DNA of 64,000 nt from Bacillus sp. sid0103 (GTDB lineage: Bacteria > Bacillota > Bacilli > Bacillales_B > DSM-18226). Under the pieces are notes generated by a model. It was given only the letters and a program-made list of their open reading frames with translations, did no database searches and was not told the DNA's origin. Position numbers and translations under genes: made by a program. Numbering within the stretch: position 1 is the first letter of the stretch; the number at the start of each line of letters is the position of its first letter. The stretch covers positions 1 to 64,000 of the forward strand of contig NZ_JAHUWN010000027.1 of the NCBI RefSeq assembly GCF_019219025.1. Reading direction: 5' to 3'. Positions 57,570 through 62,330 of the stretch are shown piece after piece.

Positions 57570-57571
57570 AT

Positions 57572-57754
57572 GGCTATGTTAAAGCTTATTGTTGATTTTG
57601 GCACCCTGTTGATTGGAGCGGAAGGCGCGAAGACTCCTGCGGGAGGACGGGGCAGGGGAGACCCCGCAGGAGCGAAGCGACGAGGAGGCTCCCCGGACCG
57701 CCCCCGAACCGCACGCGCCTGGAGCGGAAATCAACAGGCAAGTTTAACAGAGCC
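57572..57754 (+). repeat. 183-bp GC-rich dispersed repeat, copy A
   Basis: Ends GGCTATGTTAAA … TTTAACAGAGCC; internal CTGTTGATT … AATCAACAG arms and the GGAGCGGAAGGCGCGAAGAC core common in Bacillaceae genomes. Much more GC-rich than its surroundings. It contains an open frame that is also in copy B and is not a gene. Confidence 0.85.
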
Positions 57755-57767
57755 ATTTTAATAACGA

Positions 57768-58247
57768 TTACTGACTTGTTAATTTTTCAAGTGTATTAAA
57801 AACTGCTTCATAATCTTCTTTCTTATCTGCTTTAAATGAGGTGTTTATGTAGGTTATCACGCCAGCTTTATCCACCACAAAGACTGAACGAATCGCCGTC
57901 CCGCCTTTTTCGTTGAACACATAATAGCTTTTTACCGTTTGTTTAAACCAATCTGATAATAAGGGATATGGCAGCGTTCCCATACTTGCAGCAAAGACTC
58001 TATGGGAGTGGATATGATCCACACTAATCCCCAGTACTTCTGAATCTAATTGCTCAAATCGTTTGTAATCCTCTTTCCAAGAGGAAATTTCCTTAATTCA
58101 GCCGGGCGTAAAGTCCATTCCATAAAAGACAACGACTATATTTTTCTTCCCGCGATAATCAGACAAGGCAAAGGCAATTTTTTCCTTTGTCGTTGCCGTT
58201 AAAGAAAGGTCTGGAGTCAGGTCACCAACTTTCAGTGACTCTTCCAA
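57768..58247 (-). CDS. Bcp-type peroxiredoxin with in-frame TGA at the peroxidatic cysteine (candidate selenoprotein)
   Basis: 159 codons from the TTG at 58247, which has GAGGAGGG 7 nt upstream. The frame is open throughout except TGA at codon 50 (58100-58098): MDFTPG-TGA-IKEISSWKEDYKRF. Bcp peroxiredoxins have TPGC here, the Cys that attacks peroxide. The rest is a normal thioredoxin-fold peroxiredoxin (VGDLTPDLSLT start, YRGKKNIVVVFYGMDFTP, GTLPYPLLSDW, AIRSVFVVDKAGVITY), with no other lesion. No resolving Cys at +5 (Ser), so a 1-Cys type. The segment after the TGA can form a SECIS-like hairpin (58067-58089). Either selenocysteine is inserted, or the gene carries one nonsense mutation and yields a dead fragment. 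Downstream of two small ORFs on the same strand. Confidence 0.75.
58067..58097 (-). promoter_or_regulatory. SECIS-like stem-loop just after the TGA codon
   Basis: On the minus strand: AAT, bulged TT, CCTCTT, loop GGA, AAGAGG, ATT. The loop begins 20 nt after the TGA. A short stem with a small loop that starts with G at this distance is the pattern of bacterial SECIS elements read by SelB. No folding energy was computed. Confidence 0.5.
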
Positions 58248-58264
58248 AAAATCTCCCTCCTCTA

Positions 58265-61985: not shown

Positions 61986-62146
61986 TTCACCAACTCCTCT
62001 ATTTTTAATGAGAGTGATGGATAATTTTTTCGCGTATTGTTCCCTTTGATGTTTACATCACAAGTCTATTCTTGTCCCAAAGTAGCAGTTTGTCAATCAA
62101 TAAATTGATTTTTCTGAAAATGTTTATCGGATTAATTTTTAATAAA

Positions 62147-62330
62147 GGCCCTGTTAAACCTGCCTGTTGATTTCCGCTCCAGGCGCGTGCGGTTCGTGGG
62201 CGGTCCGGGGAGCCTCCACGTCGCTGCGCTCCTGCGGGGTCTCCTTTTGTCCGGTTCTCCCGTAGGAGTCTTCGCGCATGGAACGTAGATCAACAGGGTG
62301 CCAAAATCAACAATAAGCTCTAACATAGCC
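62147..62330 (-). repeat. 184-bp GC-rich dispersed repeat, copy B (inverted relative to copy A)
   Basis: Reverse complement of the 57572 element with some divergence (GGCCCTGTTAAA … CTAACATAGCC ends, CTGTTGATTTCCGCTCCAGG arm). The 61986-62374 gap otherwise holds only AT-rich sequence and the terminator of the ykvS-like gene. Confidence 0.85.

Follow-up and report, generated by a model that had tools for sequence, protein, structure and literature searches.

An in-frame TGA codon points to selenocysteine at the peroxidatic position of a Bacillaceae peroxiredoxin

The DNA analyzed here, called the window, is a stretch of 64,000 nucleotides from Bacillus sp. sid0103. Its minus strand carries a gene that almost certainly, to judge from sequence comparison, encodes a peroxiredoxin with selenocysteine (Sec) as the peroxidatic residue, the UGA at codon 50 being decoded. 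A preceding sequence-only reading of the window had proposed a selenocysteine peroxiredoxin in a Bacillaceae strain, and this proposal is supported by the conservation of the TGA, by a paired hairpin downstream of it and by the presence of sel genes in relatives. The features of the locus are collected in Table 1.

Table 1. Features of the predicted selenocysteine peroxiredoxin locus in the window
Feature	Coordinates	Strand	Description	Basis
Predicted Sec peroxiredoxin gene	57768..58247	(-)	159 codons, TGA as Sec, then TAA	frame, Pfam, pN/pS
In-frame TGA, residue 50	58098..58100	(-)	peroxidatic position (TPGU)	TGA in 108/108 related loci read
Ribosome-binding site	58255..58260	(-)	GGAGGG	sequence itself
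Active-site loop codons	58098..58112	(-)	F-T-P-G-U	FYGMDFTPGU in 42/51 aligned proteins
Putative SECIS hairpin	58070..58084	(-)	stem 58084-58079 with 58075-58070, triloop GGA 58078-58076	fold, covariation
Small ORF, 48 aa	58265-58411	(-)	upstream of peroxiredoxin	conserved in closest relatives
Small ORF, 44 aa	58455-58589	(-)	upstream of peroxiredoxin	conserved in closest relatives

Reading frame of the peroxiredoxin gene

The frame starts with a TTG codon (58247-58245), 7 nt downstream of the ribosome-binding site, and runs through 49 codons, the single TGA and a further 109 codons to a TAA at 57770-57768. The boundary at 58255 given by the sequence-only reading has to be corrected, as the coding start actually lies at 58247. 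The central claim of that reading, a peroxiredoxin frame of 49 and 109 codons with TGA exactly at the peroxidatic Cys, was confirmed: the context of the codon is TPG-TGA, and the read-through frame matches the Pfam family AhpC-TSA (PF00578; 1.1e-29, 103.3 bits). The label "Bcp-type" is a loose one, with scores well below the NCBIfam cut-offs for both the Bcp thiol peroxidase (NF006960, 60.2 bits versus 140) and PrxU (NF040737, 76.8 bits versus 270). Private changes of the window copy at conserved sites comprise A11T, F14L and two extra residues (+AF) at 25-26.

Conservation of the TGA codon

All 108 related loci read, which represent 80 distinct genes, carry TGA at the site. A first scan of contigs yielded 43 loci from Neobacillus, Mesobacillus, Pseudoneobacillus, Fictibacillus, Evansella, Salipaludibacillus and strains named Bacillus, with TGA in all 42 that cover the site. 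Within the family of genome G001 (193 genomes), 62 had a match at an E-value of 1e-20, and the site-covering matches of at least 50% identity all had TGA. The codon was likewise found in every one of the 32 genomes with a match at 1e-36 in the order of genome G015 (397 genomes) and of the 18 with a match at 1e-28 in a class sample (398 genomes); by sequence, four of these 18 class-level matches belong to the subfamily and six to a TGA-containing paralogue, eight being unread. Cys homologues, 47-52% identical, were encountered only among metagenome proteins, where the Cys aligns with the TGA column (P0034, P0038). Were the selenocysteine proposal wrong, the sequence-only reading had expected close relatives that all have TGC and no hairpin; the alignment of orthologues that it suggested gave TGA throughout and a stem that is paired in the relatives.

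Six stop-free matches of the family sample, five of them in SelB-less genomes, were considered as Cys orthologues. Their sequences identify them as ordinary Bcp paralogues, and the argument from Cys orthologues and absence of SelB was therefore dropped.

The hairpin downstream of the TGA

Bacterial SECIS elements are stem-loops that lie right after the UGA and have a G at the start of the loop. Behind the TGA of the window stands the hairpin CCUCUU-GGA-AAGAGG, which the sequence-only reading had already picked out and whose core is located exactly at 58084-58070. The distance of 20 nt from the TGA reported there is correct for the loop (approximately 20 nt) but not for the stem, which begins 12-13 nt after the TGA. 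The flanking AAT/ATT pairing and bulged TT, also part of that description, are absent from the predicted fold, which has a stem of 7 bp, one of them a flanking U-A pair (58085/58069), and the GGA triloop. The folding energy is ordinary (z -1.25, matched by 20 of 200 shuffles), and an Rfam search of the window returned no family at the gathering score.

Conservation and covariation, and not energy, are the reasons why the hairpin behind the TGA is, on comparative sequence data, a selected RNA structure. In 55 distinct rows, standard pairs fill 329 of 330 stem cells, the sole unpaired cell belonging to the outermost pair (locus L019), and compensatory double changes are seen at four of the six stem pairs. 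None of 500 shuffles, which ignore kinship, matched either figure, and 26 of them attained the six further pair types that were counted; slid controls had 65-68% of their cells paired and double changes at no more than two pairs. Among more distant relatives, both sides of the stem have changed with pairing kept in L141 (CCUCCU/AGGGGG) and L142 (CCCUCU/AGAGGG), and in L162 and L167 (CUUCCU/AGGAAG) two pairs have been swapped by silent codon changes that leave the peptide SSWKED unaltered. Codons +5 to +9 show no third-base difference among 51 sequences, though codon +5 specifies Ala, Thr or Ser. Among the 80 genes and the window copy, the fraction of silent differences amounts to 0.02-0.10 at codons +5, +6, +8 and +9 (codon +7 is TGG) versus a mean of 0.54 at 115 other codons, and beyond the stem only codon +3 is equally low. 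The loop GGA is invariant in the alignment (A2). A covarying stem directly after the UGA, closed by a G-first loop, fits the bacterial SECIS rule, and with its silent double swaps this element would be a clean object for studies of recognition by SelB.

Selenocysteine machinery in relatives

All 22 gene-bearing genomes tested, namely those behind half of the 43 first-scan loci, have SelA, SelB, SelD and tRNA-Sec above the curated cut-offs, and the tRNA-Sec anticodon is UCA in all nine loci scanned. A lack of the Sec machinery, which the sequence-only reading had named as counting against its proposal, was not seen in these 22 genomes. The top SelD match of each of them has one in-frame TGA itself (L118-L121 among the SelD loci); of four SelD loci folded, three have a short hairpin at a similar distance behind the TGA, with a UGA triloop in two.

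SelB occurs in 170 of the 193 genomes of the family sample. A close orthologue of the gene is present in 50 of them, 48 of which have SelB; G098 (2.9 Mb) and G158 combine a close orthologue with SelA and SelD and gave no SelB match. Co-occurrence of gene and SelB is weak at this level (Fisher p 0.013) because SelB is nearly universal in the family. In the class sample, SelB was found in 18 of 18 genomes with the gene or the TGA paralogue compared to 67 of 380 others, a strong association (p 1.8e-13, uncorrected for kinship). The nearest relatives of the window copy (G018, with locus L091, and G149, G001, G155 and G002) all have SelB and SelD, and across 300 bases beginning with the TGA the L091 DNA is 92% identical to the window copy. 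By analogy with such close relatives, the window strain itself probably possesses the Sec machinery.

Three further observations concern these genes. TGA-free SelD was seen, among the matches listed, in seven genomes, all without a SelB match. Neobacillus sp. OS1-33 (G002) harbors two tRNA-SeC genes separated by about 870 bases (L074:535-626 and L074:1497-1593), the first of which in coordinate order, 92 bases long and with a shortened acceptor stem, is possibly a decaying copy. Some other genomes likewise have a second, weaker tRNA-Sec match, which passes the cut-off in G007, G010 and G014.

Alternative readings of the TGA and selection on the frame

A near-cognate tRNA could conceivably read the UGA and insert Trp at position 50. 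W appears at the site in 15 of 33 aligned proteins, all from metagenomes, and some metagenome pipelines print Trp; in these metagenome protein records the letter would most simply be a code-4 translation of TGA. This alternative is very unlikely, given that the 108 genome loci never have TGG, that the hairpin covaries, that relatives possess both tRNA-Sec and SelB and that a Trp at the peroxidatic site should be inactive.

Selection on the coding frame bears on two other explanations. Measured against the ten closest relatives, the 22 codons ahead of the TGA have a pN/pS of 0.03-0.17 and the 99 behind it one of 0.07-0.16, and such low values on both sides argue against a pseudogene as well as against a short product starting past the TGA. 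A nonsense mutation or sequencing error, which would turn the gene into a pseudogene or two fragments, requires a change of one base (TGC to TGA), and the window copy does have some private changes; this explanation is contradicted by a TGA common to every locus read, by hairpin covariation and by purifying selection on either side, and hardly any credence can be given to it. Public records such as P0024-P0027 and P0029-P0032 begin just after the TGA, but a true product of 107-114 aa beginning there would have neither a peroxidatic residue nor the first strands, and with the 22 codons ahead of the TGA so constrained its probability is close to nil.

Protein fold and proposed mechanism

Peroxiredoxins are characterized by the motif PxxxTxxC and a conserved Arg. 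Thr47, position 50 and an invariant Arg120 are present. Where the motif has Pro, the window protein has Gly, the residue of 42 of 51 sequences; eight have Pro (FYPxxFTPGU) and one does not cover the position. A structure model with Cys substituted for Sec, computed from an alignment of 33 sequences (pLDDT 89), adopts a peroxiredoxin fold; residue 50 falls within helix 48-59 of the model, a placement that would be as expected for the peroxidatic residue of this family. The top Foldseek match of the model is the plant 2-Cys PrxA 5zte, and AhpE matches at a TM of 0.86-0.90 with 33-34% identity. The window protein contains no Cys at all and would therefore be a one-Sec enzyme, regenerated by an external thiol; frames free of Cys number 32 of 51, counting any codons ahead of the start. 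The absence of a resolving cysteine, as in one-Cys enzymes, and the fold are shared with Mycobacterium tuberculosis AhpE (Rv2238c), which differs by having Cys where the window protein is predicted to have Sec. AhpE is reduced through mycothiol/mycoredoxin.

If the UGA specifies selenocysteine, it would be decoded by SelB carrying Sec-tRNA(Sec), with SelB recruited by, and bound to, the downstream hairpin. Following the chemistry suggested by the peroxiredoxin fold, Sec50 would attack the peroxide with the help of Thr47 and Arg120 and give rise to a selenenic acid. By analogy with AhpE, an outside thiol may serve as reductant, most likely bacillithiol/bacilliredoxin or thioredoxin.

Relation to known selenocysteine peroxiredoxins

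TxxU-type Sec peroxiredoxins are already known, and the Bacillaceae gene is a distinct, mis-annotated subfamily. Some public records hold a fragment of 107-114 aa, or Trp at the active site. The bacterial Sec peroxiredoxin (Prx, COG1225, T/SxxU) and the window gene have in common the peroxiredoxin domain, the Thr-x-x-Sec motif and the UGA with a downstream hairpin (PMC9312934, PMC5029168, PMC1794560). The window subfamily differs in scoring below the PrxU and Bcp cut-offs, in having mostly Gly for Pro and in having no conserved cysteine. A second Sec peroxiredoxin of the relatives (DWTPVU-GAQMPSYEDD) has its TGA at the same site and occurs in many of the same genomes, but is about 40% identical and continues with another downstream sequence, and its hairpin has been folded only singly. 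Loci of this second protein are L122-L130, L139 and L143-L148.

Sec peroxiredoxin has been counted in 78 organisms (PMC5029168). An earlier survey associates Sec use with low oxygen, citing peroxiredoxin as one case, and its 2006 table counts three selenoproteins in Bacillales (PMC1794560). Among the hosts of the subfamily, Neobacillus OS1-33 is described as facultatively anaerobic. No paper on this gene was found by title or abstract, most subscription papers being out of reach, and none was found on selenocysteine in Neobacillus or on selA together with selenocysteine in Bacillaceae. Others among the host bacteria are aerobes. It is quite conceivable, if tentative, that the subfamily is almost entirely selenium-based, cysteine-free and bacillithiol-recycled, that it has persisted in spore-forming Bacillaceae with a facultative or aerobic way of life, and that truncation at the TGA by annotation has kept it from notice. 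Such a selenium-based, cysteine-free subfamily would run against the trend of Sec peroxiredoxins belonging to anaerobes. The hosts can be cultivated, so that the reason for employing selenium in an enzyme that faces peroxide in the presence of oxygen could be tested directly.

Gene loss and genomic neighborhood

The gene is dispensable and can be lost, as illustrated by two loci. In Neobacillus sp. SuZ13 (G019), whose genome has SelA, SelB, SelD and tRNA-Sec, the peroxiredoxin is frameshifted (L039:5980-6490), and Bacillus sp. AFS073361 has a deletion remnant in which the upstream small ORF region is joined to the last ~34 residues (L043:5840-6160). The gene order of the window, acyl-CoA ligase, MFS, two small ORFs, peroxiredoxin and Gmk-like, is wholly or partly kept in L001-L004, L037 and L039, and in L043 with the peroxiredoxin remnant, while the two small ORFs of L005-L007 are located approximately 2.7 kb upstream. 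At the other 33 of the 43 loci, the window neighbors are absent within the DNA examined, a weak MFS match in L025 being the sole exception. With the neighbors kept at few loci, no operon partner is proposed. The two small ORFs upstream of the peroxiredoxin had no Pfam or NCBIfam match at 0.01. Elsewhere in the window, two spurious-looking ORFs (57570-57761 and 62132-62326) have in common the peptide IVDFGTLLI and GC-rich sequence and are perhaps copies of an interspersed repeat.
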